Source: Anastrepha obliqua (Eukaryota; Arthropoda; Insecta; Diptera; Tephritidae). From it: a DNA stretch of 64,000 nucleotides. This document shows positions 30,342 to 60,215 of this stretch, piece after piece. Below the pieces are notes generated by a model, which did not search any database, was not told the origin of the DNA, and was given only the letters and a program-made list of their open reading frames with translations. Made by a program: the position numbers and the translations under genes. Each line of letters begins with the position of its first letter. Position 1 is the stretch's first letter. The DNA lies in the NCBI RefSeq assembly GCF_027943255.1, contig NC_072894.1:81941601-82005600 (forward strand). Reading direction: 5' to 3'.

Positions 30342-33300
30342 ATGATGTGGAAACCACAAGCCGAAGACTTAAAAGAAATAATTACAGTCCTCAAACAGGC
30401 TCAGTCGCTGGATAAGGCCACTCAAATAGCTGTTAAACAGGTAAGTAAAAAAATACTGTCCGAAAACTGTTAAAAGTCCGTTCAAATTACACTATCTTAT
30501 ATACATATATAATATATTGTTACGAATTTGTTACATTTTTATCCAACTAAAACGTGTAGCAATAATTCCTCTCAGGTCGATCACAGGAATGTTAAATAAA
30601 AGTCACGAGCTAATGAAAACACAACTTGCTTGCTTTATTGTATCAGTTTATTGCGTTATTATACGTGTACACGTTCACCTTAAGACTGAATACCCTATTC
30701 GGATGTACCTCTGATTATATAAATAAATAAATAATTAGCGTGCACACTCCTTTCTAAAAAAAGCGCAAGACAGATGGAGGTCCGTCTCATCGTGTGCTAT
30801 TTCGAAAATACATAATAATGAGAAAAGTGTTTTTTTGTTCGCCCGAAAAACAATTTTTTCAAGATTTATCGGCAATTTTGTTTTTCGGCTCAAAATCTAT
30901 TTTTTTTAATTTTTTTTTTTAATTGTTTCTTAGTCAAAAATGAAACGATTTTAATGATTCTGATTTTTATATTGCAAAAAAACAAAAACTGCGAAATTTT
31001 TTCGAAGTTCAATATTTCAAAAAGAGTATTTTTTTCAACTTTTTCCAAACCAAGAGGACACCTCAAACTTCAATTGAGCTGAATGCCCAGTAGCTAAAAT
31101 CAGTTGTTTTTGAATAATGAATTTTTGAGTAAAAACCTGTTTCATACTTTTTGTTTTTTGGAAAATAAAAAATGTTCAACTACTTTTTTGCAATTGTTTC
31201 TACATGAAGTCGCTCGTGGAAGTAATGATGATCATTTTGAACCCAGAATCATTAAAATCGGTTCATTTTTGACTAAGTTATGAGCAATAAAAAAAAAAAA
31301 ATTCTTATATAATTAAAAAAATCGATTTTGAGCCGAAAAACTAAATTGCCGATAAATCTTGAAAAAAAATTTTTTGGGCGAACAAAAAAATACGTGTCTC
31401 GTTATTTTGACCAGAGAGCAACATATTTGAGTTACATCGAAATCGAAGAACATGACCCGAATAACCCGGTTGAATTGAAATAGAAAGCATCTATACGATT
31501 ATATATATTGTTGATGACAGTACATCATCTTGTTCCACTCCCATCTTAATTGAAAATTTTTCGGATGTCTCCTCTTGCATGTATACTAATTCTGTGTTTT
31601 GTGTTCTTTACCGTCATCATCAGACTAATTATCTTTTCTGGCATATCATAACTTGAGTGTGTACTCATAACATCTATTAGGTCAGAAACCGTAAACTGTA
31701 TTGGTAACCAGGTAGTACTCTCGTAGCGTGTTGCGTCATCTTATTGCTCAATATTTTAGCGAATATTTTGTACGTCACATTTAGCCAGGATATCTTTGTA
31801 TAATGAAACAATGACAGAGTTACACCTTTTGTGCCTTTATCCCTCCAATATTTCAGTCATCTCGCACTGCTATTCCACACCACTTTTATTAGTTTGTACA
31901 ATCTTCTTAAAAATTCGGCACTGGCATTCATTATTATTACAATTGGTAAGTTATGTGGTCGTTATATCATGGAGAGTTTCTTTCATCACCATTTGTATCG
32001 CTCAAAGTTATTTCACAGTCCTTACTAACATTTATAATGCCTACATTTAACAGCTCGTAAAAATACTCTATCCTTCTTGTCATTTTTTGTACCTTTCGAC
32101 CAGAATTATTCGTCTTTACAATGATTTAGTCGGCTTGAAACTGTAGGAAATCATTTTATAGAGGATCTTCGACGTATTATAAGCACTAGAAAAACTGTAT
32201 GAAAAGATCATACTTGCCTCTAGTATATTCTTATGTAGGAACATTGTGCTCAGACGCACTCATAAGAATGTTTTTATGTTTATTAAAACAAATAGTAAAT
32301 AAATTTGGCTATATTTCTATTCGCAGAAACTAGAGGAACTAAATCAATATCCCGAGTTCAATAACTACCTGATTTATGTACTGATAAAATTAAAAACCGA
32401 GGATGAGCCAACACGTACTGTAAGCGGTATCATTTTGAAAAATAACATCCGAATTCATAGAAATGTTCTACCGCCTGAGATTATTGAATATATCAAGCAT
32501 GAATGTTTGCAAGCTATCGGAGATCCCTCACCTCTGATAAGAGCTACTGTTGGTGTATTGATCACTACTGTCACCAGCAATGGCGGTTTACAAAATTGGC
32601 CCCAATTACTTCCCTCTTTGTACGACATGTTGGACTCGCAAGACTATAATGTATGTGAAGGTTCGTTCAGTGCTTTACAAAAGATATGCGAAGATTCAGC
32701 AGAGATGCCTGACTCGGGTGTAATCAATCGGTCTCTAAATATGATGATTCCAAAACTCCTTCAATACTTCAGCCACAATAGCCCGAAGATACGTTCACAT
32801 GCCATAGCTTGTATCAACCAATTCATTGTGAACCGATCACAGGTTCTGATGATATACATTGACGTATTCGTTAAAAGTTTATTTAACCGATCGTCCGATG
32901 AAGATCATGAAGTAATAAAGAATGTATGTCGCGGGTTTGTGATGCTGTTAGACGTTCATATGGATCGTTTGTTCCCGTATATACTAGAAATTATTGAGGT
33001 AAGTTATTAAAGCATGAATTGGTCAATGGTAAAATATTTAATTTATTAATTTATAAAACATAACAATTTTGTTATAGTACTCAATTGAGTTCAAATTAAT
33101 CACTGTCAAAAAGTATTTTATAAAATACTAATCAATTCTTTGTGTAGTATATGCTCATACACACCCAAAACCCAGATCTAACTGTAGCATTAAAAGCGTC
33201 AGAATTCTGGGTATCTCTCGGTGAACAGGGTATTTGCAGGGACGTATTAGCGCCCTATTTAGCACAGCTGATTCCAGTATTAGTGAGAGGAATGCGATAC

Positions 33301-35427
33301 TCTGAAGTTGATATTAAACTGCTAAACGGCAATGTTGAGGAGGGCGACATGGTGCCTGACCGTGAGGAGCACATACGTCCTCGATTCCACAAATCTTATA
33401 CGCACAAGTCGAAATCTGACGAAAACAATGTTGATGATGTGATAGATGATGACAGTTCACTATCAAAATGGGATTTGCGCAAATGTAGCATCGTTGCACT
33501 GATTGTATTAGCAAGAGCTTTTCAGGAAGAATGTGTACCTATTTTTCTGCCCATTATTAAAGATACTCTGTTTCATCGAGAATGGTATATCAAAGAGATT
33601 GGAATTGGTATACTGGGTGCTATTGCCGAAGGCTGCATACACAATTTGAGATCATATCTGCCCGAAGTCATGCCCTACTTGATCAGTTGTTTGTCGGACC
33701 AGATGGCATTCGTTCGCTCCATAACCTGCTGGACATTATCGCGCTATGCTAACTGGGTAGTAAACCAGCGACATGATCAATATTTGAAACCATTAATTAA
33801 AAAATTGCTAAAACGCATATTAGATTCTAATAAACGTGTACAAGAGGTAGCTTGCTTTGCATTCGCTACTCTGGAAGAAGAAGCCTGCACCGAATTGGTT
33901 CCATATTTGGAAGATATATTAAAAACACTTATATTCGCCTTCTCAAAATATCAACATAAAAATTTGCCTGGACTATATGACGCAGTTGGAACTCTAGCCG
34001 ACTCTGTGGGTCACCATCTTAACAAACCACAATACATCGATATTTTGATGCCCCCACTAATTAAAAAGTGGAATTTGCTAAAGGATGACGACAAAGACCT
34101 ATTTCCTCTTTTGGAGTGCTTGTCAAGCATCGCAACAGCTTTAAAGTCGGGATTTTTACCATACTGCGATCTATTTTATCCGCGTTGCATTTCACTTATC
34201 GAACAGACGCTGAATCAAGATATGGTATAATTCAAATATAAAGTATATTAAATCAAAAGTATAATAATTGAGTTAATTAAAGGCATGCAAAACTAATCCT
34301 GATCTCGAGTATCCAGATAAAGTAAGAATGATTGGTGCATTAGATTTATTGACAGGCCTGGCAGAAGGTTTGGCGGGACATATTGCGCCACTAGTCGCCA
34401 ACAGCAATATCACACATTTAGTTCACCACTGCATGAAGGATACAAATATAGACGTAAGTATTAACTCCAAAGTTATAGAATAGTTTCTTCTATTGGAATG
34501 TAAATTTTTTAAAATTTGTTCATTCACAATTTCAGGTGCAAGAATCGTCGATCGAATTGTTGGGAGAATTAGTTAAATCCTGTTTTCAACATGTGTATCC
34601 ATTCTTTGGAAAATTGGTACCAACTTTACTTAAACATATGAGTGGCCCTAACGAATTGACCGCTTACTTCGCTTATAGCGAAATTCGCGACAGAGTGACG
34701 GGTAAATAAAAATACATGCATATACAGGGTCCGCCATATAACTTTACGGAATTAAAAATGCTATAAAAAAGAAACTACTCAATATTTTTCAAACTGTTTT
34801 TTTTTTTTATTTTGAAGTACAATCCTTCCGGTTAATGATGGAACACAACTTCATTCATATGACTGCCTCGGCTAGCCATGCACCATCCCATACGATCGGT
34901 CCAATTTTTCAACACATTTTTGATTGTATGCGGCTGTATTTTAGCTATGACATCGCGTATGTTGGTCTTCAGAGCATCAATTGTTGCTGGTTTGTTGGCA
35001 TAACACTGGTCTTTGACGGCACCCCAAAGATAATAATCCAACGGCGTCAAATCGCAGTTTCTCTTACTTTTTTCGCAAAGTAACGCACATACGCTTCATT
35101 CGGTGCTTTTCTCCTTCCCATTGCCGTACGTAATTTTCGTACACATTCTGCAACATTACCATGATTTTCAAAGAAATGTCGCAATATTTGCCAGCGTTCT
35201 TTGAGCGTATACACAACCATTTTCGTTCAGCGGAAGAATAAAACTAATTTTCTGTCAAGTCAGATGACAGCTAAGTGTTACCATTCTTCAAATAATACCT
35301 AGTTCAAATCCGTAACGATAGATGGCGGGCCCTATATATGTATATGCATTCATTTTTTCTATAAAGTGATTAATACTTAATATAACTATTTGCAGTCGAA
35401 GAACTTGAAAAGTACCCACGTAAATGA
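30342..35427 (+). CDS. Transportin (karyopherin beta-2) paralogue, copy 1, C-terminally truncated
   Basis: Coding exons are 30342-30440, 32327-32998, 33148-34224, 34283-34453, 34536-34701 and 35396-35427. All junctions are GT-AG and the frame is open, giving 738 residues against 888 in copy 3. The N-terminal HEAT repeats that bind RanGTP are present ([21 protein letters not shown] loop, [16 protein letters not shown]). The acidic H8 loop is seven residues shorter than in copy 3. In exon 5 the conserved ATWAIGEI block reads AYFAYSEI, so the cargo-site tryptophan is lost. Exon 6 codes only [10 protein letters not shown] before a TGA shared in position with copy 2. The last HEAT repeats are absent. 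Intron 1 holds a solo LTR and a hairpin MITE, and intron 5 a mariner MITE. Intact splicing and frame argue against a simple pseudogene. Expression is unknown; a Ran-binding, cargo-poor or dominant-negative role is inference. Confidence 0.85.
30512..30765. repeat. Solo LTR remnant in intron 1 of copy 1
   Basis: The block 'tgttacgaatttgttac...cctctcaggtcgatcac...caccttaagactgaatac' has a counterpart at the same intron position in copy 2 (44904-45125) but none in copy 3. It is related to the LTR at 21320-21600. Confidence 0.7.
30814..31406. mobile_element. Hairpin MITE with about 150-bp inverted arms
   Basis: The left arm (aataatgag...ttgttcgcccgaaaaacaat...gccgaaaaacaaaat-type sequence) pairs with the right arm ending ctcgttatt at 31406. 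Complementarity includes 'agatttatcggcaat' against 'attgccgataaatct' and 'gaatcattaaaatcg' against 'cgattttaatgattc'. No ORF. The target duplication was not resolved. Confidence 0.75.
34725..35334 (-). mobile_element. Internally deleted mariner-type element in intron 5 of copy 1
   Basis: The ends read CAGGGTCCGCCAT and, inverted, TAGGGCCCGCCAT, with matching TTACGGA blocks inside and TA on both sides. The minus strand encodes a transposase N-terminus ([20 protein letters not shown]) that runs straight into a C-terminus ([20 protein letters not shown]...[13 protein letters not shown]), so the catalytic core is deleted. It is absent from the same intron of copy 2. Confidence 0.85.
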
Positions 35428-35842
35428 ACGTCACTTCACTATGGAACATCATTACACCCGAGTACAAGACGATTTCACCCAAGGTGACATCGCTATAGAA
35501 ACTGATTTTCTTTTTTTCTTACGATTTGGTGATTTAAATGTCGAAGTGCCCTACTACTTTATTTGTTTACATTCCCAGGGAAATTTTGACATCCAGACAA
35601 CCAAATGTAAATGTTGTTGCTGTACCGCAGTCTTCTTCTTTGATTCCCTCGCATGAGAAAGCTTGGCAGATAATGCTCATTCGTAATTCACTTCCGAGCG
35701 AATTTCAATGCAATTGCCAGAATATTTCAATGAAATCCACTCTGAAGTGAATTACAGAACCTGCCCGATTGCAGAGAACGGCTGACTTCCTCAAGGTAAA
35801 TTGCGCGGCATAAGTACAAAGTCAAATGATCCTAAACAAGCT
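35428..35842 (+). other. Unexplained sequence replacing Transportin exons 6-9 in copy 1
   Basis: After the shared stop codon the sequence loses similarity to copy 3 but stays similar to 49078-49364 of copy 2. Copy 1 has about 125 bp extra here (about 35535-35660). Open stretches look codon-like, but I recognise no protein. Homology between the copies ends at 'atgatcctaaacaa'. It may be a 3'UTR or a fused fragment of another gene. Confidence 0.5.
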
Positions 35843-36148
35843 CGTAAAGAAAATGTGAGTGCAGAAATAACTGGATTTGGAACTATGATTTGTTCAGCTA
35901 TTGCCAAATTAAAAACGAAGGCGCAAGCCTCGGTTATGCAATGGTGCACGGAAATAGTGATGCGAGCTACTTAAAGACTTGGAAGATAGTTAAGGACTTG
36001 CTTGACTTTGGAAAAAATTAATTTTTTTGTATTTAATTTTAGGGTAGTTCTTATCACTTATGTTAATACTGGACTGAGTGCCAACATATACTGGACTGAG
36101 TGCCAACATATTTGACAGTCGTATTTATACTTATTCCTCATCTTACTG
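35843..36148. other. Intergenic, no gene recognised
   Basis: Starts with a codon-like stretch (EITGFGTMICSAIAKLK in one frame, to about 35975) of unknown origin. A 23-bp unit 'atactggactgagtgccaacat' is tandemly duplicated near 36065-36112. Confidence 0.4.
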
Positions 36149-37825
36149 TTTTAGGTACACGACTTGTATATTAGTTTATTTGTTTGCTGTTTAGGAAAAA
36201 CATGTTTATCTTTTGTCATTTTTAAAATATTATACATATGTTTATCTTTTGGTATTCTCAAAATATGTTTGGATTGCATGATTATACTTAGAATTTACTT
36301 AACTATTTTTATTTATTATTCGTGAATGAAATCATTCCTTAACTCTCCCCTTCCTAAATTAAATCGTCCCGATTTATACCGAATTAATGTTTGTTCCTTG
36401 TTCTTGCCTAAATAATTTTTACAGTTATTCACTCTAGTGTAAATATTGTTGCAAAGGACAATTTCCTTATCGGTGAAAATCTTTACATGCTTAGTTCTAA
36501 GTGGTGTGAATTTAAATAGTTTACAATGATTATTTATGATAGGATATTTGTAAATAGCAATGATAGGATTTTTAGTGCTTTTAATAAATATTTGTTCGTA
36601 TGATGTGGTAATTTTTTAGGAATTAGTTACGTAGAATAAAAATGTGAATTCGTCAAATAAATTTGCATCGTCGGTTCTAGTTAGAATATATTTCCTGTTA
36701 GTTATGGTTGTTATTTTGGTGTCTCCTTCTGCTTGAATTGCGATTATGATGACCATGGCTAGTTATATCAGGTAACTCATTGTCGTCTCCTGTAACTGTG
36801 TAATTTTTTACGTTGTTGCTGAGTTGGTTGCCTGAATATTGTGTTTCCGTTGTGTCCATGGATTCTGGTTTTGGTAATTGTGATGGTGGCTGATTATAGT
36901 TGTATTTCTGCTGATACATGGGACCTCTCTGGTGATGTTCTTTCTCATAGTAGTGTTTATTGTTGGTTGGATGAATATTCTGTTGTGCATAGCCTAGACA
37001 TAACTTTCGATATTCGTCATCGTACTCTATGGTACGGGCTACTGCAAATGCATGCTCTAAATTCCTTATAGGATTTCCGTCTAGGGTGGATCGAATATAT
37101 GAGTTATTTATTCCATCCTTAAACCGCTTCTTGTGTTGCCTCATCAGTCATTACTTTGGTCACTTCTTGGCTTTGATAGATATTTTTGACGTGATTAGCG
37201 TCAGGGCTCTATTCACGTTGTCATGGAATTCACTTAAATTGTGTTTACCTTGTGTGAGTCTCTTCATCCCGTCCTGCGACACATATAAAGGTCGTTGATC
37301 AGCATAGGTATAGTCCAATCTGTTCCTGATTGCATCAAAATTAAATATTGTGTTATGGTTGATCAACACGTCAGATGCTGCACCTTGTATTTTAGTTTTT
37401 ATAATTGATAGAGCTTCTACGTATCTTTTGGAATTCCTATGATTACTAATTCCATCCATAGGTCTAGAGACATCTTCCCTCCATACGCGGTATTTGGAAA
37501 CGTTGCCGTCAAATACCGATAGTGCTTTAAAAACGACCAGATTGATATGGGTTGGATTGGTATAAGTTATGTTGACTAGTTCCAATAGTTCTAGGTAGTT
37601 AGGTACACGACTTGTATATTAGTTTCTTTGATTGCTGTTTAGGGAAAACATGTTAACATCTTGTTATTCTTAAGATACATATGTTTATCTTTTGTTTTTC
37701 TTAAAATATGTTAATCTTTTGGTATTCTTAAAATATGTTTGGATTTGTTCAGCCCTGCATGATTATACTTAGAATTTACTTAACCAATTTTATTTATTAT
37801 TTGTGAATGAAATCATTCCTTAAAT
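36149..37825 (-). mobile_element. Internally deleted errantivirus/gypsy-type LTR element
   Basis: Two direct LTR copies (36149-36344 and 37597-37825) share the 'ggtacacgacttgtatatta' and 'gaatgaaatcattcctt' ends. Read on the minus strand, the combined termini are AGTTA...TAACT, as in gypsy/errantivirus LTRs. The right LTR is the 5' one. Only a broken gag lies between them; pol and env are deleted. Confidence 0.75.
36698..37585 (-). pseudogene. Broken retroelement gag
   Basis: Two open pieces on the minus strand (37585-37160 and 37144-36698) are separated by stops and a local shift of frame. The first has a YRVWREDVSRPMDGI segment and a KISIKAKK end. The second has a RTIEYDDEYRKLCLGY segment and a Q/N/H-rich tail. 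Composition and position suit a gypsy-type Gag. No zinc knuckle was seen. Confidence 0.65.
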
Positions 37826-37937
37826 AGCTCTGGCAGAAGACCAATAATAATTCTTTTCTAAATACCAAAGGGAATTTATATATGTATATTTTTAATGATC
37901 AAGTTGAGAGCCGGAAAAGTCATGTGATATATATATA

Positions 37938-38290
37938 AAGGGTGGTTAAATTTCAAGGACCCATATTGAATGTGATCCACACCTAAACGTCAACGATACC
38001 GTTGGACTTCTTTCTTTGGGGTTATTTGAAAGAAAAGGTATACGTCGATAAGCCAGCAACAATTCGGGAGCTAAAGGATGAGATAATTCGGCACATTAAC
38101 GGCATAGAACCTCAATTATGCTTCAGCGTCATCGAAAATTTGGACCATCGGCGCAATTTGGCCGATATTTTGTTCCATACGTAATTGAGTCATACCAATA
38201 TTATCATAATGAAGAGAAATGACAATGATTTCCTAAAAAAATTGTATTTTATTTAAAATCAACACCGGCCCTTTAAACTTAACCATCCTT
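37938..38290 (+). mobile_element. Short deleted mariner-type element
   Basis: The ends AAGGGTGGTTAAATTT and, inverted, AAGGATGGTTAAGTTT are flanked by TA. The plus strand encodes only the transposase C-terminus (38002-38184: DFFLWGYLKEKVYVDKPATI). 353 bp. Confidence 0.85.
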
Positions 38291-40140
38291 TACTTTCATA
38301 AAAAATGAAATTAACTGTGTAATGAAACATTTTTACTTTGGAATAGACTATAATACTATTAAGAAGTTATGTATAAACAAATTTGATAACCATCCAGTTG
38401 GAACTCAAGTTTCTCTGGCCTGCAACGAACAGCAAATGAAATAAAATGAAATAAAACAATTATAACACTTTCAATGTGATTTACTCTTTATTATCTTGGA
38501 AGGCTACTGCTCCTTCGTTAATAAAGTAGTTAGTTAAGTATAATCTGTGTTCATATGCACTATTCAGACCTCTGCGTATAAAAGTTCAAGCGAACCGCAG
38601 TGTCCCGCATTCGAATTGAGTTCATTTCTCCATTCTCCCTTGTTTCCTTCGGCACCTGTGTAGTTGTCTGGGCAATACCACTTTTGCGTGTCGTTTAGCA
38701 TTATAAAATTGTGGAGGAATGTAGTTTTTCCTAATTGGTATATCGGGGGCCAAGTCTCTGACAAGTATTGTAATTATAATACTCAACTATAAATATAAAA
38801 AAGTACAAAACCTACAGCAGGGTTAGTGACAGACGTTCCTCAGCATATATTTGCTCCTTATATTATATTTCATTAGATTCGGCGTCATTAAGTTTAACAA
38901 ACAGTCAAACAATTGGCGAGTCATTCTTGTGAGGCAAAAAATTTTTCCTAGCTTAATTGTTTAATTTTGTGGTATGTTCTCGATAGTATCCATTTTTCGC
39001 CCAATCCACGTTAATAGGATGCACTCGTCACCTCCTTCTCTGTTTCAATTTTTTTCTTTTAGCGTATAATGCAATTATACTTAAAAACATTAAATTAATT
39101 CTTCATCACTGTCCATTTTCTTATTTTTTTGATTTCTCACCCTCTCTTCGTTAGTGCTGTTATCAGTAATTCTACTTCAAAATCAACTGTTTATGGTTGC
39201 GGCATGACTAATCGAAGAAGCGTTCCACTCCTAAAGGATATTACAGGATTCTAAGGCAATGTCTGCATTACCCACGATTTTATTTCGAATAACATTCAAT
39301 ATTCTCATACTAATTCCATAGTATTCAGGTGTTCTTCTTGAGGTTTGTGGGTCTGAAGGACCCGATTTACGCTCTTTTCCAGGAACTTAACTTTCCTGGT
39401 TGTCCTGAAAATTCTCATATACATGGAATCTTGTCGATATTGATTGCCAGATATTGCTTATAAATCCAAGTCACATCCAAAAATTTGAGTTGGGATTTAA
39501 AGAGGCCTGTACAATACTTCTGTCTTCTCTTTCAAATATGTTGCGGACTACACTGGTAAATACTTCTGTCAGCTGAACCATATTGGTTTAGGAATTATTT
39601 AGGATGCAGTGCACCAACGTTACCACTAGTGGCCTGACTAAGTTACTAGGATTAGACATTTTTTACTTTCCGATTTGTTTTTCGCATCAATTTTATGTTT
39701 ATTTAACTGGATCTATTTTCTAAATTTTCTGCTTCTTTGTTTTCTTTAAGCTTTTCCTTCCTTTCCTTAGTTTCGATATTTCCTTCCTTTGAAACTTTAA
39801 AATTCACTGTTCTTGCGTTTTTCTATTCTTTTAAAATTCTATATTTTATTTCCTAGCACTTTCTTCGTAGTCCGTGAAATGGTGCTGCCCGGTGAAACGG
39901 CTGACACGCTGTGTCGTCCTTTTTGTCTGCCGGTACAGTTACTCCCGGACCTCCTTCTTCACTCCTGCGGGTGTTACTTGCATTGCCAGATGATGCCTGC
40001 CTTGCTGCCTGATATCCTTCTTGGAATTTTTTTTGGTAAAAAAGTTCGCACGTACAATGCAGACAGAGTGTCTGCATAATTATTTGAAGAGAATACGCGT
40101 ATAGCGATCCCCTTGTAGCGACTACCAAACTGTAGCACTA
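38291..40140. other. Intergenic with possible retroelement debris, no gene called
   Basis: The minus strand at about 39230-39600 has weakly Gag-like broken frames, and 38420-38770 resembles a diverged LTR with an AATAAA. Neither can be placed with confidence. Confidence 0.35.
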
Positions 40141-40719
40141 GTTGCAGGTAAGTACGTAAAAATTCCCCAAAAGGGTGAAGATGATAGTACATGTGTTCTG
40201 GTTTTGAGGCAGGCCACTTTGACAATCAAGACATAAAATCGCAAAATCAATAAAGCAGCTGCTTTGACCTTTTTATAATTTAATCTGTCCTCTAAATTGT
40301 CAAACTTTGTTTACCTTTTACTTTGTTATTGTCCTATTGTCTAGAGCAGCATACTCAGAGAGCGTTCATGAGCAGTATCCTGGTGATCACTGGTCAAGAG
40401 AATTCAAGCAGCAACAAAATACACGCCATTGTTGTTTTTGCTCTACTGCTGCCACCTTGTAGATGTGCCTTGGCTCGAACCAAGAATGATGAAAAACTAT
40501 TTTCTATCTATCATTCTTAAACTTGTACGCACAACGAGCAGTAGCTCTGAGCACTTAAAAAATACGTTTAAAAATTGCGTCTAGAAATTTAATGAACACA
40601 GTGAAAGGAGGAAGTTTAGTGAAATAATACTTCAATCACCGAAAAATTACAAGATCCAATTCCATCATCCATTAAAGACCACGATTAAGTGTAATCTATT
40701 TTTAGTGTGTACATCAAAG
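40141..40719 (+). promoter_or_regulatory. Promoter/5'UTR-exon unit upstream of Transportin copy 2 (first of two)
   Basis: Colinear with 27300-27902: 'gcaggtaagtacgtaaaaat', 'gagcagcatactcagagagc', 'cttgtagatgtgccttggct', and a final exon-like stretch ending acatcaaag|gtaagt at 40719. Downstream intron sequence is also shared (to about 40920). Confidence 0.55.
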
Positions 40720-40920: not shown

Positions 40921-41600
40921 ACAGATATACAATAGTATTCAAAAGATACAGCTAATATGAAAGTCAAAGCGAAACTCGTACGCCCAATTGAAGGGAGTAG
41001 TCATTTTTTATTTAAATTAGATTTGACATACCGCTGACAAATTATTCATAAATTAACTTTCTTTCAATTCTTTCTGCAAAACTTACTTCAACTGAGTTTT
41101 TGAGCTGTTTTTTTCATGATTTGTTTAACACTGTTTTGTTCATATTTTCTTCACTATAATATAATAACAATATCCCCCGGTCCCGAACTTCGTCAGCATC
41201 GTGTAATGTTTTCACGTAGAGTAGCAGCACCGTAGCTAAAGGGCAAGCAAATAATAGGCCTCTTCTAATGCCACTTCTCTGCTGGACTAACTTTATGAAA
41301 CATTTGCGTGTGAAAGCAACAACAAAGTTGTGGAGTAAGATTTGCCGCTAGCGAGTATGGCTATAACTCATTAGACTGGTATAACTCACTGTCATACAAA
41401 CACATGTAATTTAAGGCACCTCTATTACCGCGTTGCCAACATATGTATGTATATTTATACCAGTTGCTTCATCTGTTCGCCACTTGCTAAGTCTTGGCGA
41501 AAAAAGAGGCCCATTCTTAAATAAATAGAAATGCAATTGTAACGAATGATTATTCGCACCAGCATATCAGAGGACCGAAAAAAAATCCAAACCTACCAAA
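40921..41600. other. Spacer between the two promoter units, contains one arm of an inverted repeat
   Basis: No gene. The segment 41401-41512 ('ggcacctctattaccgcgtt'...'gcgaaaaaagaggccc') is repeated in inverted orientation at 43943-44078. Confidence 0.6.
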
Positions 41601-41611
41601 TAGTAGCATTA

Positions 41612-42209
41612 GCTGCAGGTAGGCACGTAAAAACTCCCCAAAAGGACGAAGGTTTCAGTACATGTGTTTTGTTTTTGTGAGAATATAAACAAACAAGCAC
41701 GCAGGCCCCTTTGACAATCGAGACATAAAATCGCAAAGTCAGCTGAAGGCCGTAAACAAGACATTATCAGAAAAGCAGCTGCTTTGACCTTTATACAATT
41801 CAATTCTAGATTGTCAAACTTTGTTTACCTTTTACTTTGTTATTGCCCTATTGTCTAGAACAGCATACTCAGAGAGCGTTCATGAGCAATGTCCTGACGA
41901 TCACTGGTCAAGAGAATTCAAGCAACAACAAAATACACGCCATTGTTGTTTTTACTCTACTGCTGCCACCTTGTAAATGAGCTATTGTTGTTTTTGCTCT
42001 ACTGCTGCCTCCTTGTAGATGTGCCTTGGCTCGAACCAAGAATGATAAAAAACTATTTTCTATCTATCATTCTTAAACTTGTACGGACAACGAGCAGTAG
42101 CTCTGAGCACTTTAAAAAATATGTTTAAAAATTGCGTCTAGAAATTTAATTAACATAGTGAAAGGCGGAAGTTTAGTGAAATAATACTTTGATTACATGT
42201 AAATCAAAG
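41612..42209 (+). promoter_or_regulatory. Second promoter/5'UTR-exon unit upstream of copy 2
   Basis: Closer to the copy 1 unit than to its neighbour in the 'gacgaaggtttcagtacatg' part. It has an internal partial duplication of the 'tgttgtttttactctactgc' block (41945-42015) and a shorter final exon ending aaatcaaag|gtaagt at 42209. A pogo-like element sits 70 bp downstream. Confidence 0.55.
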
Positions 42210-42279
42210 GTAAGTTTGTGTTTTTTATAAATATTGCTAAATTTGTTCATGAAATCTTCTTCTTACATATGTATAAGTA

Positions 42280-42880
42280 CAGTAGGTTCTGTTTTTATGC
42301 GGTAGATACGTTCCGCAAGAAACAGCATAAAAAAACAGCATAAAAAAAGCTACTAGTTCTATAGTAAAACTATAGATACGTTTCAAAAGTGCTAAAACCG
42401 CATAAATCTGAAATAATGTAATAAAATCGCATAAAAAAGGGCACTAGTCCCATATTATAACTATAGATACGTTCCATAGACCGCATGAATCTGAAATAAT
42501 TAAATAAAATCGCACAAACAAAATATTGTATTTTTGAAAATTATATCTTTATTTAAGAAACGTCAGAATCGAAAAATAAATTTAATTCAGAAATAGAATC
42601 AGGCTATACCCAAATATTGCGCGTTCGTTTAGGATTTGGCGTAAAATCACTTTCGTCACTTGACGAAATGTACACGTCTGATCAGGATGGTGATGCAGGC
42701 GGTTCCAAACTTGTAGGGTTAGCATTTCTGATGTAATCTGTGATGAGTTTTTGCTTAGCTGGCTTAGAATCTTGTTTATATGTACAATTCCCGATAGGTC
42801 GACATGCATTTTGTAATTAAAAAAAAACCGCACTATTTCAAAACCGCATAAAAAAAGCCGCATAAAAACAGAACCTACTG
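42280..42880 (-). mobile_element. Pogo/Tigger-like non-autonomous element, copy 2
   Basis: Same family and same internal deletion as 28947-29545, in reverse orientation. Ends CAGTAGGTTCTGTTTTTATG with TA on both sides. The equivalent empty sites in the other promoter units (near 27965 and 40790) confirm the borders. Confidence 0.88.
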
Positions 42881-43035
42881 TATATCTAAATATAATAATA
42901 GTGAAATTAGTGGAGAACGTAAACTCGCTAGTACGTAAACCCGGGTCAGTTGGCACGATCTATCTTACCAGAACACCGTCTAAACAAATATGTTAATTTT
43001 TTTTTCAATTAAAGCACAGATATATGTACATAGTA

Positions 43036-47700: not shown

Positions 47701-49077
47701 AATGTTGATGATGTGCTAGATGATGACAGTTCACTACCAAAATGGGATTTGCGCAAATGTAGCATCGTTACACTGACTGCGTTAGCAAATGTTTTTCGGG
47801 AAGAATGTCTACCTATTTTTCTGCCCATTATCAAGGATACTCTGTTTCCTCAGGAATGGAATATCAAAGAGATTGGAATTGGTACACTGGGTGCTATTGC
47901 CGAGGGCTGCATGCAGGGTATGATCCCATATCTCCCCGAAATCATACACTACTTGATCAGTTGTTTGTCGGACCAGAAAGCATTGGTTCGCTCTATAACT
48001 TGCTGGACATTATCGCGCTATGCTAACTGGGTAGTAAACCAGCCACATGACCAATATTTGAAACAGTTCATGGAAGAACTACTAAAACGCATATTAGATT
48101 CTAATAAGCGTGTTCAAGAGGCAGCTTGCTTCGCACTCGATACCCTTATGGAGGAGGCTAGCACCGAATTGGTGCCATATTTAGAAGATATATTAAAAGC
48201 TTTATCATTGGCCCTCTTAAAATATCGAGATACAAATTTGCTTATACTATATGACACAGTTAGAACTCTAGCCGACTCTGTGGGTCATCATCTCAACAAA
48301 CCACAATACATCGATATTTTAATGCCTCCATTAATTGAAAAGTGGAATTTCACAAAGGATGACGACAAAGACCTATTTCTTCTTTTGGAGTGCTTGTCAA
48401 GCATCGCAACAGTTTTACAATCAGGATTTTTACCTTACTGCGATCTAGTTTATCCGCGTTGTATTTCACTTATCGAACAGACGCTGAATCAAGACATGGT
48501 ATAATTCAAATATAAAGTATATTAAATCAAAAGTATAATAATTGAGTTATTTAAAGGCATGTAAAACTAATCCTGATCTCGACCATCCAGATAAAGTGAG
48601 AATGATTGGTGCTTTAGACTTATTGACAGGCGTGACAGAAGGTTTGGCGGGACATATTGCGCCACTAGTCGCCAACAGCAATATCACACATTTAGTGCAC
48701 CACTGCATGAAGGATACAAATATAGACGTAAGTATTAACTCCAACGTTATAAAATAGCTTCTTCTATTCGAATGTAAATTTTTAAAAATTTGTTCATCCA
48801 CAATTTCAGGTGCGAGATTCGTCGATCGGATTGTTGGGAGCATTAATTAAAACCTGTTTCCAGCATGTGTATCCATTCTTTGGAAAATTGGTACCAATTT
48901 TATTTAAAAATATGTGTGGCCCTAACGGGTTGGCCGCTTGCCTCGCTTATGGCGAAATTTGCGAGAGAGTGACGGGTAAATAAAAATACAAATATGCATA
49001 CGATTTTTCTATAAAGTGATTAATGCTTAATATAACTATTTGCAGTCGAAGAACTTGAGAAGTACCCACGTGAATGA
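44732..49077 (+). CDS. Transportin (karyopherin beta-2) paralogue, copy 2, C-terminally truncated
   Basis: Coding exons are 44732-44830, 46611-47267, 47422-48498, 48557-48727, 48810-48975 and 49046-49077, giving 733 residues with all frames and splice sites intact. Same architecture and same stop position as copy 1 ([10 protein letters not shown] then TGA). Exon 2 has an extra in-frame 15-bp deletion removing part of the [10 protein letters not shown] segment. The acidic loop is shortened as in copy 1. The exon 5 block reads ACLAYGEI where copy 3 has ATWAIGEI, so the cargo-site tryptophan is a leucine. Intron 1 holds the shared solo LTR, a duplicated 300-bp repeat and a MITE. Relative to copy 1 it differs at many residues (about 16 of the first 58 of exon 3), while intron 2 differs at only about 4% of positions. 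Likely a functional but altered import receptor, or a Ran-binding decoy. The function is inference. Confidence 0.85.
44904..45125. repeat. Solo LTR remnant in intron 1 of copy 2
   Basis: Positional and sequence match to the remnant in copy 1 (30512-30765), at the same point after 'actatcttatat...aatatat'. It was therefore present before these two copies separated. Confidence 0.7.
45130..45955. repeat. Dispersed fly repeat plus two tandem units of about 300 bp
   Basis: It starts with a 'gtttggccgagctcctcctc' unit that I associate with tephritid genomes. Two tandem copies follow (about 45327-45629 and 45653-45951), each with 'acaagttc.cctgttcagctg' near its start and 'cagtcggcat...gggtcaaaatgaccc' near its end. 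No coding. Confidence 0.7.
46116..46380. mobile_element. 265-bp MITE in intron 1 of copy 2
   Basis: The inverted ends CGTCCCCTTAGTAT match the complement at 46380, and an ATAGCCTAT block follows on both arms. ATTATT-type sequence flanks both sides. Copy 1 has the uninterrupted site ('gaattattcgtctttac' near 32105). Confidence 0.85.
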
Positions 49078-49364
49078 ACATCGCTTCACTATTGAACATC
49101 ATTACACCCGCATACAAGACGATTTCACCCAAGGTGACATCGCTATAGAAACTGATTTTCTTTTTTTCTTGCGATTTGGTGATTTGTTCAGCAGAGAATG
49201 CTTATTCGTAGTCCACTTCCGAGCGAATTTCAATGGAATTGCCAGAAACTTTCAATGAAATTCACTCTGAAGCGAATTACAGAACCTGCCCGATTGCAGA
49301 GAACGGCTGACTTCCTCAACGCAAATTGCGCGGCATAAGTACAAAGTCAAATGATCCTAAACAA

Positions 49365-50450: not shown

Positions 50451-50519
50451 TCTCCTCTCCTCTCGGAGGCAATCACCAGGCCCCTGAATAGACAACGGAT
50501 TTGAACTGACCTTATTAGA

Positions 50520-51203: not shown

Positions 51204-51228
51204 ATTATATTTACGAATGTAAGGAGAA

Positions 51229-52303: not shown

Positions 52304-52395
52304 GACCGCACTATGGGCCAGGAGACCCTTATAAGTGGCCAAAATTCATAATTCCCAAAACACCAACAATTTATAACTTTTAATACCGCTATGTA

Positions 52396-52960
52396 CAGGT
52401 TTTGGGGTCTCTGATTACGAATATGAAGTCAGATTTCAATAATTCAAAATGGCGGATCCAATATGGCGGACATGAAATTTAAAAAATTGGATTTTTTTCA
52501 CCAAATTTGGTATTTAGGGGTTTTGATGGTCTCTGATTACGAATATGAAGTCAGATTTAACATATTCAAAATGGCGGATCCAATATGGCGGACATGAAAT
52601 TTAAAAAATTGGATTTTTTTCACCAAATTTGGTATTTAGGGGTTTTGATGGTCTCTGATTACGAATATGAAGGCAGATTTCAACAATTCAAAATGGCGGA
52701 TCCAATATGGCGGACATAACTTTTTTAAAATTAATTATTTTTTACCAAACTTAGTATTTAGGGGTTTTTGGGGGCGCTGATTACGAATCTGCTGCCAGAT
52801 TTTAGAAATTAAAAATGTCGAATCCCTTATGCGGACCTTTTTTTTAATTTTATCTGATTAATTTGAAACTTGTTACTCGGGCTTTTTTGTATCGCTGTTG
52901 ACAAATCTGCAGTTAGATTTAAACAATTGAAAATGGTGGATCCAATATGTCAGAGACACG
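52396..52960. repeat. 122-bp tandem repeat inside the Transib-like element
   Basis: Three well-kept units and two diverged ones, each with 'aaaatggcggatccaatatg' (52446, 52568, 52690 and a weaker one near 52930) and 'ctctgattacgaatatgaag'. A related block occurs at 14319-14335 plus 15066-15110 in the other Transib-like element. Confidence 0.9.
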
Positions 52961-53124
52961 CCTGCAGTTAGCCTACATAATAAGTTGTAGTTTCCGGAAT
53001 CTACCACGTGGAGGTTACAGTGGAGGAGGATTTTCATCTGTAGGAGTCTGTTTCTCATTGACACTATCATAACCTTGTTTGTAAGGCGAATGCCCACTAC
53101 TCCCATCAAATCCCCAAGAACACA

Positions 53125-53964
53125 TCAGAACAGTTTTGAGCTCAGTAATTTTATTTTTTTGAATAAGACAGAAACTTCTCTTTGTAGTTCTATTATTCTA
53201 TTCACCGTGTGGTTTAAAAGTTCTTGAAGTGATACTTCAGCTAACGTTTCAGAAGTTTTAATTGACTCTTTCGACGGTCTTAACTTTCCTTTGGCTTCTC
53301 TAATCGCATTATACGCAGGCCAAATGTCTGCTCCACTAGATTTGGTCGCTAATCGCATATTCTGATAGACTTGTTTAGACATAGAATTATCGAAAAGAAA
53401 TGCTAAAGCCACTTCTGGGCTTTTCTTTTCTATTGTAGGAAAAGGTGTTGTCATTATTTTTCTAATTTTCTTAGCCTGTTCCTCGTTTTTTGAAAGTTCG
53501 TTAAGTACCGATCGCAAATCTGCTTCCCCTGAAACTCGTGCCGCATGACTAGTAGCCATTAATAGTTTCTGACGATCATTATCATGTTCTTCACTGATTT
53601 TAGACACTTCTCGTCTTTTCGATCTAGTAGATTTTTCTGCAAAATCGAGCGATGGACGACCTCTTTTAAGTATTTCAGTCTTACTTATTTTAGCTGTGAG
53701 GTCTAAGTCAGGAATAGTAAATTCAGAATCTAACCACTCTGAATTTTGTGACTCAAAGACAGCTATTTTCCTACTGCAATGCTGATATTTTGCATTTCTT
53801 TTTGACTTTAAACTATTTAAAGCATTTTTCAAGCGTTCCAATCCTTTACAACCTACATCTGATTTATTGATACCAATTTTAGTTAAAATTGAATCAGCGG
53901 TTATATTCATGTCATTATTACCTAACATAATTTGAAGAACCTCTTTTTTCTTCAATGAAGTCAT
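53125..53964 (-). CDS. Uncharacterised 279-residue protein encoded by the Transib-like element
   Basis: A single intact open frame, lysine- and serine-rich, predicted soluble. The N-terminal region (residues 1-60) may form a helical domain (LERLKNALNSLKSKRNAKYQ). It is followed by a basic linker with a GRPSLDF...RSKRR motif (about residues 98-115, nuclear-signal-like) and a helical segment (MATSHAARVSGEADLRSVLNELS). The C-terminal block has SPEVALAFLFDNSMSKQVYQN...ADIWPAYNAIREAKGK and AEVSLQELLNHTVNRI. No DDE catalytic arrangement, zinc finger or RAG1-like core was seen. From memory, similar unnamed proteins recur in many invertebrate genomes, which suits a mobile-element origin. The absence of stops suggests recent activity or selection. 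Function unknown. Confidence 0.75.
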   Translation of the reverse strand: MTSLKKKEVLQIMLGNNDMNITADSILTKIGINKSDVGCKGLERLKNALNSLKSKRNAKYQHCSRKIAVFESQNSEWLDSEFTIPDLDLTAKISKTEILKRGRPSLDFAEKSTRSKRREVSKISEEHDNDRQKLLMATSHAARVSGEADLRSVLNELSKNEEQAKKIRKIMTTPFPTIEKKSPEVALAFLFDNSMSKQVYQNMRLATKSSGADIWPAYNAIREAKGKLRPSKESIKTSETLAEVSLQELLNHTVNRIIELQREVSVLFKKIKLLSSKLF

Positions 53965-54581
53965 TATGAATTAAATGAGTTAAAATTGTGTGACTCTTAA
54001 TACTTGGTTAACTTTTTACACCCTATTGGCAAATGATTGATATACAGTCAACACGCGCATAGATCAGTAAAACTTCATTTTTTTTAAAAAGAAAATGAAA
54101 AACCGCAGCAAACCGCACCTTTAGCTTGTTACACATGAACTACTGAAGACGTTAATGTAAAGAAATTGTTAATAGCTTCTGGAGTTTTGCGCAAGGCTCA
54201 ATCGGCGTATTAACAAGTAGTAAAAAAAAACAAAATTTTTCACAATTATTCTCAATATTTCTAACATCAGATTTATTTTTTCAGCTATTGACTATTTTCA
54301 CATACTACATGATTGCAACTAATGAGAAAATGCAATATAATTAATGACAAATACTACATTTCAGTAAAACAGTGACAGTTTAGAACAATAGCTATATGGT
54401 GATCATTTAAGCCTTACACTTATATTAACTTATTATACAAGCTTAAATATTTCATTAAAACTTATAACATTTACAAAATAACTACTTCCACTTATCTATA
54501 TGATGATACTATATTGCATTTTGAAAAATCTTTCAATGACTTTTGGCCAAATTTTTTGGTCTTCTGGCCCACAGTGGACCG

Positions 54582-54930
54582 GCAATTTCATTGAAATCGA
54601 CCATTACAAAATCAAAAATTGAATGCCGAGACGTTAAATAATGCATACATCCAATGAAATGCTGGCAACCCCATGAGACTCGCACACCCTCACGCTGACT
54701 CGTTCGCACATTTATTTTTTCGAACACGTTAGAAAGGGAGAGCGTGTAGGCCATGAAAGTTGAAACTTCATTTTAAGTTTTTTGTTCCCAGAAAAAATTG
54801 TACTAGACAAGAAAGAAAAAGAGGAAAGTTAGTGAAAGAATATTTTAATTGCGAAAAAATAACCAATTCCAGTTTAAAAGTCACCAAATTAAAGACTTAA
54901 GTGTAATATATTTTTAGTGCGTTTATCAAG
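54582..54930 (+). promoter_or_regulatory. Promoter and presumed 5'UTR exon of Transportin copy 3
   Basis: The stretch 'agaggaaagttagtgaaaga' through 'cgtttatcaag|gtaagt' (exon end 54930) matches the final part of the units upstream of copies 1 and 2. The coding exon begins 357 bp further on. The Transib-like element lies immediately upstream, so this promoter is only about 200-350 bp deep unless control elements lie elsewhere. Confidence 0.6.
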
Positions 54931-55286
54931 GTAAGTTTCTTTGTGGATATTTTAAAAGACTAATAGTGAATTTGCTAGAAATCGAAAAGCGTGCGAAAGG
55001 AAAACTTAGAAAAATATCGAAAGGCATTAGAATGTTAAGCATATATCAAATTAATATTTTTTGGTTACAAACGTTAGAAAACAGCTACAAAAGTAATATT
55101 GATACTTTTTTATATAAAAATTAAAACAAATTTTGACCGTGTCTGCATTTCCTTTTTCGCGCATGTCACCGTCTAGCACCCTTTGACAAACCTTCAAATT
55201 TTTGCTCATATGTATAAGTACTGCCTTCAAATGTGGAATTTTTGCAGGTAATTCACCCCCAAGTAAGAGAATAAAAGGAAAATAAA

Positions 55287-58200
55287 ATGACGTGGGAACC
55301 GCAAGCCGAAGGTTTACAACAAATAATTACAATCCTCAAGCAGTCTCAGTCGCCGGATACCGCCACTCAAATGGCTGTTCAACTGGTAAGTGAAAAGCAT
55401 CTATATGTAATTATACCTATACAATTATAACTGTCCAAAATAGGCATTTTCAAAAGCCGTTAAAAAGAAACTATCTTATATGAAAAATATATGTATATGT
55501 ACCTATATATATACCTATATCCTATATGTCTTTTGTGCTTATAAAAGCTAATACTAAAATATTAAATAAATCCGGCTATACTTCAATTCGCAGAAACTAG
55601 AGGAATTGAATCAATATCCCGATTTTAATAATTACCTGATTTATGTACTGACGAAACTAAAAACTGAGGATGAGCCAACACGTTCTCTAAGTGGTCTAAT
55701 TTTGAAAAATAACATCCGGATTCATGGAAATAATTTACAGCCAGAGATTATAGAATATATCAAGCATGAATGTTTGCAAGCTATCGGAGATCCTTCGCCT
55801 CTAATAAGAGCTACTGTTGGTATATTGATCACTACTATCGCCAGCAATGGCGGTTTACAAAATTGGCCCCAATTACTTCCCTCTTTGTGCGACATGTTGG
55901 ACTCGCAAGACTATAATGTATGTGAAGGTTCGTTCAGTGCTTTACAAAAGATATGCGAGGATTCAGCAGAGATACTTGACTCGGGTGTACTCAATCGGCC
56001 TCTAAACGTGATGATTCCGAAATTCCTTCAATATTTCAGCCACAATAGCCCGAAAATACGTTCCCATGCCATAGCTTGTATCAACCAATTCATTGTGAAC
56101 CGATCACAGGCTCTGATGCTACACATCGACGCATTCATTGAAAGTTTATTTAACCTATCGTCTGATGAAGATCATGAGGTAAGAAAGAATGTATGCCACG
56201 GGTTGGTGATGCTGTTAGAAGTTCGTATGGATCGTTTGTTGCCGCATATGTCACAAATTATAGAGGTAAGTTATTAAAACATGAATTGGTCAATGGTAAA
56301 ATATTTAATTTATTAATTTATAAAATATAACAATTTTGTTATAGTACTCAATTGAGTTCAAATTAATCACTGTCAAAAAGTATTTTAATCAATTCTTGTT
56401 TTTATAGTATATGCTCATACGCACCCAAGACCCCGATCAAGGTGTAGCATTAGAAGCGTCAGAATTCTGGCTATCTCTCGCTGAGCAGAGTATTTGCAAA
56501 GAAGTGTTGGCGCCCTATTTAGGGCAGCTAGCTCCAGTATTAGTCCGTGGAATGCGATACTCTGAAATTGATATTATCCTGCTAAAAGGCAATGTTGAGG
56601 AGGACGACATGGTGCCTGACCGTGAGGAGGACATACGTCCTCGATTCCACAAATCTCGTACGCACACCCTTAAATCCGGCGAAAGCGGTGTTGATGATGA
56701 TGATGATGATTTTGATGATGTGTTAGATGATGACAGTTCTCTATCAGAATGGAATTTGAGGAAATGTAGTGCCGCCGCACTGGACGTGTTAGCAAATGTC
56801 TTTCGCGAAGAATGTCTACCTATTGTATTGCCCATTCTCAAGGATACTCTGTTTCATCAGGAGTGGGTTATCAAAGAGAGTGGAGTGTTGGCACTGGGTG
56901 CTATTGCCGAGGGCTGCATGCAGGGTATGATTCCACATCTACCCGAACTCATACCCTATTTGATCAGTTGTTTGTCGGACAAGAAAGCATTGGTTCGCTC
57001 TATAACTTGCTGGACATTATCGCGCTATGCTAACTGGGTAGTAAACCAACCACATGATCAATATTTGAAACCATTAATGGAAGAACTACTAAAACGCATA
57101 TTAGATTCTAATAAGCGTGTTCAAGAGGCAGCTTGCTCCGCATTCGCTACTCTGGAAGAAGAAGCTTGCACCGAATTGGTGCCATATTTGGAGTATATAT
57201 TAAAAACTCTTGTATTTGCTTTCTCAAAATATCAACATAAAAATTTGCTTATACTGTATGATGCAGTTGGCACCCTAGCCGACTCTGTGGGTCACCATCT
57301 TAACAAACCACAATATATCGATATTTTGATGCCTCCACTAATTGAAAAGTGGAATTTGCTAAAGGATGACGACAAAGACCTATTTCCTCTTCTGGAATGC
57401 CTGTCAAGCATCGCGACAGCTTTACAGTCGGGATTTTTACCATACTGCGATCCAGTTTATCAGCGCTGCATCTCACTTATCGAGCAAACTCTGAATCAAG
57501 ACATGGTATATTTCAAATATAAAGTATATGAAATCAATAAGTTTAATAAATGAGTTGTTATTTAAAGGCATGTAAAACTAATCCTGGCTTCGAGCATCCA
57601 GATAAAGAGCGAATGATTGTTGCATTAGACTTGTTATCAGGCCTCGCAGAAGGTTTAGACGGACATATTGAATCACTAGTCGCCAACAGCAATATTATGC
57701 AATTACTTTATCAATGTATGCAAGATGTATTACCAGAGGTAACTATTAATTTCAGCTTAACAAAATGATATCTTTCATTCAAATCTCTTTATTGATAATT
57801 TTTTATTCACAGGTGCGACAATCATCGTTCGCATTGTTGGGAGACTTAACTAAAGCTTGTTTTCAACATGTACATCCATTCATGTCGGAATTCTTCCCAA
57901 TTTTGGGGCAAAATTTGAATCCTGATTACATTTCCGTATGCAACAATGCTACTTGGGCTATTGGTGAAATTTGCATGAAGCTGGGTAAATAAAAATATAT
58001 ATTTTTTAACAGTGTGATTAATGCTTAATATAACATTTTCAGGCGAAGAAACTCGGCAGTACATACATCTTGTACTCAATGAACTCTTCGTTATAATAAA
58101 CAGACCGAACACTCCTAAAACACTGCTGGAAAATACAGGTATGTAATTAATATTTATGCAAATAACTTGAACTGATGGTTAATTTTCCGTTAATTCAACT

Positions 58201-60215
58201 GTAACTATCTGCTGTCATGCTAGAGAGTGCATGCCTGTTTCATGTCTGTATGCAATTTCGATAAGAACTGCGCTCTTAAACCACTTTTTTTAACAATTAA
58301 TCATTTTGAAGCTTGAAATATGCTGAAACTTCCTCAAGCCGGGATCGACATTAAAATACAATTTAGACAAGTCGTAGAAAATAGTTGTTACTAATAATCC
58401 AGTAAAAGCCAAAAAGTATTTTTCTCACAATGTCGCGTATATCCAGATTCTCGAAATCGAACCTAAATGAACATGTTTTAGCTGATGTATTGCATGGAGT
58501 AAGCCTTATCTTTACTATTTATAGGGTTTTATAGTTATCGGTTATATTTTTACATATTTTATATGTGAGATGTGAATGATATCGAACAAGGATGAAAAAT
58601 CTCTAGGATCGTTTGATAGAATTAATCAGCGTAAGATCTATGATCCTCATCACGTGGACGAGGGGATGATATGTAAATACGAACTCCATGAGATTTTTAT
58701 TAACATGTACGTTTATAAAACGTATTGATTAACAGCGAATATGTCTGATTTGTCTTGGCTATATTAAACGAATAATGGCATCGGCACCCATGAGTGTACA
58801 ACGACCGTCCACAGTCGTGATGGAAAGGGAAATTTCGAGTTAGAGGAGAACTTTATATCAAATGTAAGAGGGAATGTATTTTGTAACAGGAACGTCAAAT
58901 GGAGTAAGAAGTGGGATCGGGGGTGTTTCTGAAAAACGTCAGCTTATCTGTAAATTACCAAAAAAAATCCCGTGTAATAGTCAAATTAAAGATTTTTCTG
59001 TATTCTAATAAACATTTCACCTCTTTTTAATTAATCAGAAATTGATAAAAAGTGTTTTGCTTTGGTAATTATTTTATGTTGGACGAATAGTTTTTTGGCT
59101 GTTTATCAGTTGCACCTAATTGCATAATAATAAACACCTAAAGTGTACGCCATTTGATATAATTTCCTTCATTGTTAAGTTTATTGAATCTTAATACTTG
59201 TAAAATGCAGTTGTCTTCCGAAGTGTATATATGTAAGGTAGCAATCATTGCATACATTAAGAATTGATGGTTTCAGTTGGATAACAAATTTCATACTTAT
59301 ACATACATTTGATTAACCATTGCATTGATTAATACATTTATGCAACTTATTTGTATTATTGTGAAACGCATATGTACTATAATTTATGATTTTCATTTAT
59401 TTCTGTTTTTTTTCTGTTTTTTAGCAATAACAATCGGTCGTCTAGGTTATGTGTGCCCAGTTGAAGTGGCTCCTTATTTGCCAGAATTTGTACGACAGTG
59501 GTGTGTAACACTTTATATATGATTTCTATATGTTTATTACTTTTAACCGAAACAGGCCCTCTAATTTCATCTCACTAATACTCAAGCTTTTTCTATCCTA
59601 CTACCATCTAAACTCAATTTGCTTTTTAAAAATAGCAAAGCAATCTACACCTCGCATTCATATAAATTTTCGTGTAATATGTTAAACAAATTAAATTTCG
59701 TACTTGTTTATTATTTGCAAATACAAGTAAGTGTTTTTCGTTGGACTTTTGTATAAAATAATTTAATATGGCTGCGACGTTGGTAGTTATATTCATAATT
59801 CAATTGATTATGAAAATGCTTAGTAATTTACATTCGTATATTCACTGCTTTATTCATACAGGTGTACATCTCTGCGTCATATAAGAGATAATGACGAAAA
59901 GGATTCGGCTTTCCGCGGAATGTGTCACATGATAACCGTAAATCCAGGTGGCGTCGTGCCCGACTTTATATTCTTCTGCGATGCTGTGGCTTCATGGGTA
60001 AATCCGCCACAAGATTTGCATCAAATGATTCAGAAGGTAAATGAAATTTGAAAAATACTAATGACAGTAAAGTAACTCAACATCTTAAATCTACTCACGT
60101 TTTTTAGATTCTGCATGGCTTCAAAACACAGGTAGGGGAAGAAAACTGGCGTCGTTTTGTCGATCAGTTCCCACAAAATCTCTCGGAGCGCCTGGTTGCT
60201 ATGTACAACATTTAA
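55287..60215 (+). CDS. Tnpo: Transportin-1 (karyopherin beta-2), full-length copy
   Basis: Nine coding exons: 55287-55385, 55594-56265, 56408-57505, 57568-57738, 57813-57984, 58043-58138, 59425-59500, 59862-60036 and 60108-60215. All junctions are GT-AG in phase; total 888 residues, close to the usual 890-900. It imports PY-NLS cargoes such as hnRNP proteins through the nuclear pore under RanGTP control. Landmarks: [20 protein letters not shown] and [12 protein letters not shown] in the N-terminal HEAT repeats, the acidic H8 loop ([14 protein letters not shown]), [16 protein letters not shown] (PY-site tryptophan), [12 protein letters not shown] (second cargo-site tryptophan), a [19 protein letters not shown] block and a C-terminal [10 protein letters not shown]. 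The ATG follows a short leader exon part. AATAAA at 60593 is a likely polyadenylation signal. It is the closest of the three to the human protein, so it is taken as the ancestral gene. Confidence 0.97.
58139..59424. other. Large intron 6 of Transportin copy 3, nothing recognised
   Basis: At 1286 bp it is by far the longest coding-region intron of copy 3. No transposon ends or coding motifs were identified. Confidence 0.5.

Follow-up and report, generated by a model that had tools for sequence, protein, structure and literature searches.

Two shortened copies of the nuclear-transport gene Transportin (Kap-β2) lie beside a full-length one in Anastrepha obliqua, and the locus raises the question of whether such truncated genes are remnants on their way to decay or have been kept for a purpose of their own. 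All three copies lie in tandem on one strand (+) of a 64-kb stretch of genomic DNA (64,000 nucleotides, hereafter the window). As laid out below, copies 1 and 2 appear to be functional genes whose task has shifted, not dead duplicates.

Three Transportin genes in tandem

Copy 1 occupies positions 30342–35427 (six coding exons, 2217 bp, 738 aa), with its exons placed by a splice-checked model at 30342–30440, 32327–32998, 33148–34224, 34283–34453, 34536–34701 and 35396–35427. Copy 2 follows at 44732–49077 (six exons, 2202 bp, 733 aa; 44732–44830, 46611–47267, 47422–48498, 48557–48727, 48810–48975 and 49046–49077), and its translation is identical across 733 residues to P0001, transportin-1-like [Anastrepha obliqua]. 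Copy 3 (55287–60215) has nine exons, 2667 bp and 888 aa (exons 1–3, 55287–55385, 55594–56265, 56408–57505; exons 4–6, 57568–57738, 57813–57984, 58043–58138; exons 7–9, 59425–59500, 59862–60036, 60108–60215). The exon numbers and coding lengths that a first-pass annotation had given for the two truncated copies are reproduced exactly by these models, and so are the GT-AG junctions and open frames it described: internal stops are absent and every intron is GT…AG in all three modelled copies. Copy 3 shares 828 of 888 residues (93%) with Lucilia Tnpo and can be aligned to human Transportin-1 across residues 2–888; judged from these alignments, it is an ordinary, canonical Transportin. Tandem repeats are prone to misassembly, yet the introns and insertions are distinct in each copy and a protein matching copy 1 stems from another species' record (Anastrepha ludens, see below), which makes an assembly artefact extremely unlikely.

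Copies 1 and 2 share their 3′ end. In exon 6, both carry an 8-bp gap relative to copy 3, immediately followed by a common TGA. They span approximately HEAT 1–16, keep about five sixths of the length of Transportin and stop near HEAT 16, short of a complete C-terminal arch to HEAT 20. The earlier statement that all indels relative to copy 3 are multiples of three holds for exons 1–5 (15 bp in exon 2 of copy 2, 21 bp in the HEAT-8 loop, and a net −6 bp in exon 5 spread over two or three gaps according to the alignment used) and breaks down at the exon 6 gap. Exons 7–9 were unrecognisable 3′ of copies 1 and 2 in tblastn searches with the C-terminal part of the protein, the best match of which outside copy 3 was exon 5 of copy 2 (E = 0.10). 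When exon 6 of copy 3 is read through into intron 6, a stop is met at the third codon, after 771 residues, and a duplicate cut in intron 6 would therefore have been truncated from birth. Transportin was duplicated in tandem in Anastrepha, copies 1 and 2 are without the last three exons, and the duplicate was probably cut inside intron 6 at its origin.

Upstream, a 5′ leader is common to the three copies. In copy 3, a segment at 54824–54930 (approximate start) is homologous to copies 1 and 2 and ends in a GTAAGT donor, suggesting a leader exon. Copies 1 and 2 additionally possess an upstream module that is absent from copy 3: in copy 1, module and leader cover 27300–27902 and end in a GTAAGT donor; in copy 2 the module is doubled, with module a and a leader recognised by homology at 40122–40719 and a second module copy, b, at 41590–42209, the leader of which is mostly lost. 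With this additional module, the regulation of copies 1 and 2 may differ from that of copy 3. A search of Rfam returned zero matches.

Open frames, gene conversion and near-neutral protein change

Neutral pseudogenes of this divergence should carry stops, as the first-pass annotation had argued. We scored a residue as derived if it departed from copy 3 and the copy 3 state was found in one or more of four further dipteran Transportins, dropping columns gapped in any copy. By this measure, copies 1 and 2 have changed in 165 and 154 columns, respectively, 75 of them common to both (six columns unpolarised); this amounts to 244 distinct missense events, without a single stop. Mutation models give 0.058–0.079 nonsense per missense changes; with the values used (0.058, 0.060 and 0.0766), 14.2, 14.6 and 18.7 stops are expected, and the probability of finding none is 7e-7, 4e-7 and 8e-9, respectively. 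Indels tell the same story. The coding sequences of copies 1 and 2 differ by 240 substitutions over 2193 sites and by a single indel, the 15-bp in-frame deletion; nine aligned noncoding segments differ by 70 substitutions and five indels over 1356 sites, an indel count that is low because unalignable, transposon-sized parts are excluded, and no noncoding indel is a multiple of three. Scaled by the noncoding indel-to-substitution ratio, ~17 coding indels would be expected (P = 7e-7), and scaled by the rate per base, ~8 (P = 0.003), the latter being the fairer figure since gene conversion inflates the coding differences. These counts argue against neutral debris and for selection on the reading frame of both copies.

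The copies also bear signs of conversion. Exons 1, 4 and 5 and intron 4 are 88–95% identical between copies 1 and 2, and either is 63–85% identical to copy 3 (exon 4: 94.7% between copies 1 and 2, 77.2% between copies 1 and 3). Across exons 2 and 3 and also intron 2, the distance from copy 3 to either copy is about that between copies 1 and 2. Heterogeneity of site patterns along the gene is significant by permutation (P = 0.0002): there are runs where copy 1 matches copy 3 (P = 0.0004) and others where copy 2 does (P = 0.01); the longest stretch without copy-2-only sites was non-significant (P = 0.11). Gene conversion with copy 3 is the best explanation of the patchwork in exons 2–3 of copies 1 and 2, and it probably ran from copy 3 into copies 1 and 2. 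As a consequence of conversion, these two diverge more in coding than in noncoding sequence.

Such conversion, together with luck, is also what would have kept the frames open if copies 1 and 2 were decaying pseudogenes, an explanation that agrees with the absence of exons 7–9 and with the near-neutral amino-acid rate described below. However, conversion spares stops no more than missense changes, and the stop deficit is left intact by it, since the count is confined to changes that persist today. Combined with the lone in-frame indel between the copies and an A. ludens orthologue of equal length, the 244 missense changes without a stop render decay improbable. Alternatively, the copies might act via RNA, for example through small RNAs directed against Tnpo, rather than as proteins, and exons 2–3 are indeed highly similar to copy 3; but preservation of the frame is not expected from an RNA function and the three copies lie on one strand, so that we regard this as very unlikely.

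At the level of the protein, the copies evolve quickly. Between copies 1 and 2, dS is 0.190 and dN 0.0998, and a three-branch codon model returned ω values of 0.66 for copy 1, 0.81 for copy 2 and 0.56 for the branch linking both to copy 3. Fixing ω at 1 for copies 1 and 2 cost 2.4 log units, which is non-significant, and likelihood-ratio tests for ω < 1 gave P ~0.06 (copy 1), ~0.4 (copy 2) and 0.09 (jointly). Since ω is not significantly below 1, amino-acid constraint on the two copies is weak; amino-acid change in them is near-neutral. Positive selection between copies 1 and 2 was considered and rejected, as a 60-codon scan gave P = 0.15 against neutrality after scan correction. The scan peaked at codons 300–359, covering HEAT 7–8 and the HEAT-8 loop (P = 0.03 by column permutation), and codons 301–360 hold 18.5 nonsynonymous versus 0.5 synonymous differences. 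For a deficit of nonsynonymous differences, P was 0.10 in a scan and 0.06 overall.

The A. ludens protein is 738 aa long, shares 710 of these residues with copy 1 (96%) and has the same C-terminus. At a Ks of 0.046, 28 missense differences are seen against 79 expected (ω ~0.35), the yardstick being that of another species pair, A. fraterculus–A. obliqua, whose column in the available part of PMC6139333 was averaged over its first 20 rows (row 21, in which a gene name recurs, was excluded). At a Ks of 0.02, the comparison is compatible with neutrality (P = 0.16). The records for the A. ludens protein and for A. obliqua copy 2 are annotated proteins; among the database matches listed, there was no separate record for A. 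obliqua copy 1.

Fold and cargo contacts of the truncated proteins

The two proteins scanned, those of copy 2 and of A. ludens copy 1, possess an importin-β N-terminal domain, with Pfam IBN_N scores of 52.4 and 45.9 bits, respectively (cut-off 21). Copy 2 is predicted to fold into a confident HEAT solenoid except for the HEAT-8 loop (residues 309–325 and 327–358, pLDDT <50), and the best PDB matches of the model are Kap-β2 structures. This long acidic loop is present in copies 1 and 2, 7 residues shorter than that of copy 3. RanGTP contacts HEAT 1–4, HEAT 7–8 and the HEAT-8 loop (PMC7930572, in excerpt). Near-invariant positions are altered at 16/124 (copy 1) and 12/124 (copy 2) in HEAT 1–8, at 17/153 and 28/153 in HEAT 9–13, and at 20/67 and 19/67 in the remainder after HEAT 13. 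Only the contrast between HEAT 1–8 and the remainder is significant (Fisher P = 0.006 for copy 1, 0.002 for copy 2), and it could be due to recent conversion. The truncated end is the most altered part, but HEAT 1–8 is no better kept than HEAT 9–13; copies 1 and 2 may plausibly still form the N-terminal RanGTP-binding arch.

Cargo contacts have fared differently from site to site. The residues of Transportin-1 that contact the FUS NLS are listed in PMC3466232 (in excerpt), and 22 human PY-NLS contacts taken from there were mapped onto the copies. Copy 1 retains 11 and copy 2 retains 12: in the PY pocket three of seven and four of seven, respectively, in the central patch (epitope 2) all eight, and in the third site none of seven. 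Within the pocket, K377, I457 and W460 are retained in both copies, with A381 changed to V and L419 to G in both, D384 to I/T, and A499 to V in copy 1. In the third site, D693 has become E/A and W730 F/L (copies 1/2), and the remaining five residues are missing. All 22 contacts are present in 123 of 131 full-length relatives, a set in which conserved proteins are over-represented because it was drawn from best-match lists, and even five divergent Drosophila '-like' proteins within the 131 keep 18–21 of them. Measured against chance, P is 0.04 for the PY-pocket excess and 0.11 for the intact central patch (8/8).

Since the third site is lost altogether, along with much of the PY pocket, while the central acidic patch is intact, PY-NLS reading is likely altered, and copies 1 and 2 would not recognise PY-NLS cargo as Transportin usually does. 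They would then serve as cargo-altered Ran-binding karyopherins or chaperones, not as general importers, perhaps holding basic or Arg-rich clients. If this holds, the locus offers a natural and directly testable uncoupling of Ran binding and cargo reading. The copies could instead still be PY-NLS importers that add redundant Transportin dosage under relaxed selection, in line with the length they retain, with W460 and the eight epitope-2 residues, and with the Kap-β2 fold predicted for copy 2. A PY pocket reduced to three or four of seven contacts and an empty third site argue against it, as does the failure of human H8–H16 and H9-E, in which few contacts are missing, against FUS toxicity in yeast (PMC9860449, in excerpt); we deem it unlikely. 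Human Transportin-1 truncations from that source, such as H1–H13 and H8–H16, resemble copies 1 and 2 in losing some or all epitope-1 contacts, and differ from them in having been made in the laboratory and in keeping the PY pocket intact.

Distribution and related nuclear-transport duplicates

A tree of 20 rows unites copies 1 and 2 with the A. ludens protein (support 100/100) in a clade sister to copy 3 (100/99); Lucilia stands next to the Anastrepha group (83/81), and the Drosophila paralogs lie apart. Among the best 120 matches listed for each of copies 1 and 2, only two records, both from Anastrepha, exceed 73% identity, although database clusters at 90% identity may conceal members, and more divergent copies may exist in other tephritids. 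To this extent a cluster of truncated receptors is unusual, as first proposed. The accompanying premise that Transportin is normally single in insects needs correction: the available text of PMC8645118 describes a Tnpo duplicate, the testis-enriched CG8219, that arose by a single DNA-mediated event and is found in seven Drosophila species and in none of 29 non-Drosophila insects surveyed. According to the same text, copies shortened by at least 10 residues were classed as pseudogenes, a rule by which genes like copies 1 and 2 would be set aside.

A literature search in a limited collection returned nothing on Anastrepha transportin-1 or fruit fly transportin-1-like. The main text of an A. ludens stage transcriptome (PMC12426010), consulted for expression, contained no matching term, and a report that Wolbachia CidB targets Kap-α and Moleskin (PMC6881146) does not mention Tnpo or transportin. 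Y-linked importin-4 fragments (PMC3049792, PMC7747380, both in excerpt) were rejected as precedents, as they concern a different importin. Gene conversion, the near-neutral amino-acid rate, the A. ludens orthologue and the loss of PY-NLS contacts had not featured in the first-pass annotation.

With a probability of roughly 0.6, we favor the interpretation that copies 1 and 2 encode truncated, cargo-altered Ran-binding karyopherins that are maintained by selection and probably act in the germline. Germline-biased expression, most likely in the testis, is suggested by analogy with CG8219 and with Apollo (PMC10520872, in excerpt). Like copies 1 and 2, CG8219 is a DNA-mediated Tnpo duplicate, and the Drosophila '-like' proteins, presumably its orthologues, are likewise long-branched. 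It stems, however, from a separate duplication event, the tree joining the Anastrepha copies to copy 3. The five '-like' proteins are 877–891 aa long and retain 21, 21, 18, 21 and 21 of the 22 contacts, whereas the Anastrepha copies are tandem, truncated and left with 11–12. Apollo and Artemis are, similarly, a tandem pair of the importin-β family (importin-4 of D. melanogaster), ~98% identical, with sex-specific expression and germline roles, Apollo being testis-specific; the Anastrepha copies, in contrast, are truncated and divergent. If the favored interpretation is correct, Anastrepha would provide an independent lineage in which to examine whether recruitment of nuclear-transport duplicates to the germline is a recurrent event in flies.

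A bolder proposal takes its cue from Segregation Distorter (SD). Cargo-blind Ran-binding copies might tune or sabotage Tnpo/Ran traffic in spermatogenesis, as driver or suppressor, the truncated proteins rivaling Tnpo or upsetting the Ran cycle of the male germline much as Sd-RanGAP does. A fast-evolving, truncated tandem duplicate of a nuclear-transport gene next to its parent would suit a selfish or anti-selfish element, and falls into the SD class of architecture described in the available part of PMC8645118. On the other hand, the A. ludens orthologue suggests fixation rather than a segregating driver, and the scan for positive selection did not depart significantly from neutrality (P = 0.15), leaving this proposal doubtful. 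Sd-RanGAP itself, like copies 1 and 2, arose by tandem duplication of a gene in the Ran pathway and has lost its C-terminal part; it differs in being an enzyme that lacks its export signal and for which drive is known.

Insertions in the truncated copies

In both truncated Transportin genes (copies 1 and 2), an element of ~605 bp with terminal inverted repeats lies between coding exon 1 and the leader, i.e., the 5′ segment homologous in all three copies. The two elements, whose limits were set by eye, are located at 28944-29547 on the forward strand (copy 1) and at 42278-42883 on the reverse strand (copy 2), and share 94% identity. Given their opposite orientations, they probably represent a single DNA-transposon family that inserted independently into each of the two copies. 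Intron 5 measures 694 bp in copy 1 as compared to 70 bp in copy 2; the copy 1 intron carries an insertion (34720-35340) with short inverted ends, as judged by eye, which is likely a transposon remnant.

Exon 6 and the HEAT-8 loop

At exon 6, the last coding exon of copies 1 and 2, another frame (frame 0) is uninterrupted at 35396-35500 and 49046-49150, respectively, over the 105 bases that were translated. Within the long acidic HEAT-8 loop of Transportin, a conserved 16-letter stretch is mostly retained in copy 1, in contrast to copy 2, where it is changed at several positions (residues ~318-336).

Intergenic frames, repeat and flanking genes

Pfam searches returned no match for two neighbouring reverse-strand open frames at 36698-37618, gag-like by eye, nor for a reverse-strand frame of 281 aa, running from stop to stop (53125-53970), in the interval that separates copy 2 from copy 3. 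The same interval holds a 122-bp tandem repeat (3.6 copies; 52398-52836). Flanking genes comprise pieces of an OATP transporter (394-7653, forward strand) and a PRP4-type WD40 splicing factor (17857-19550, reverse strand).
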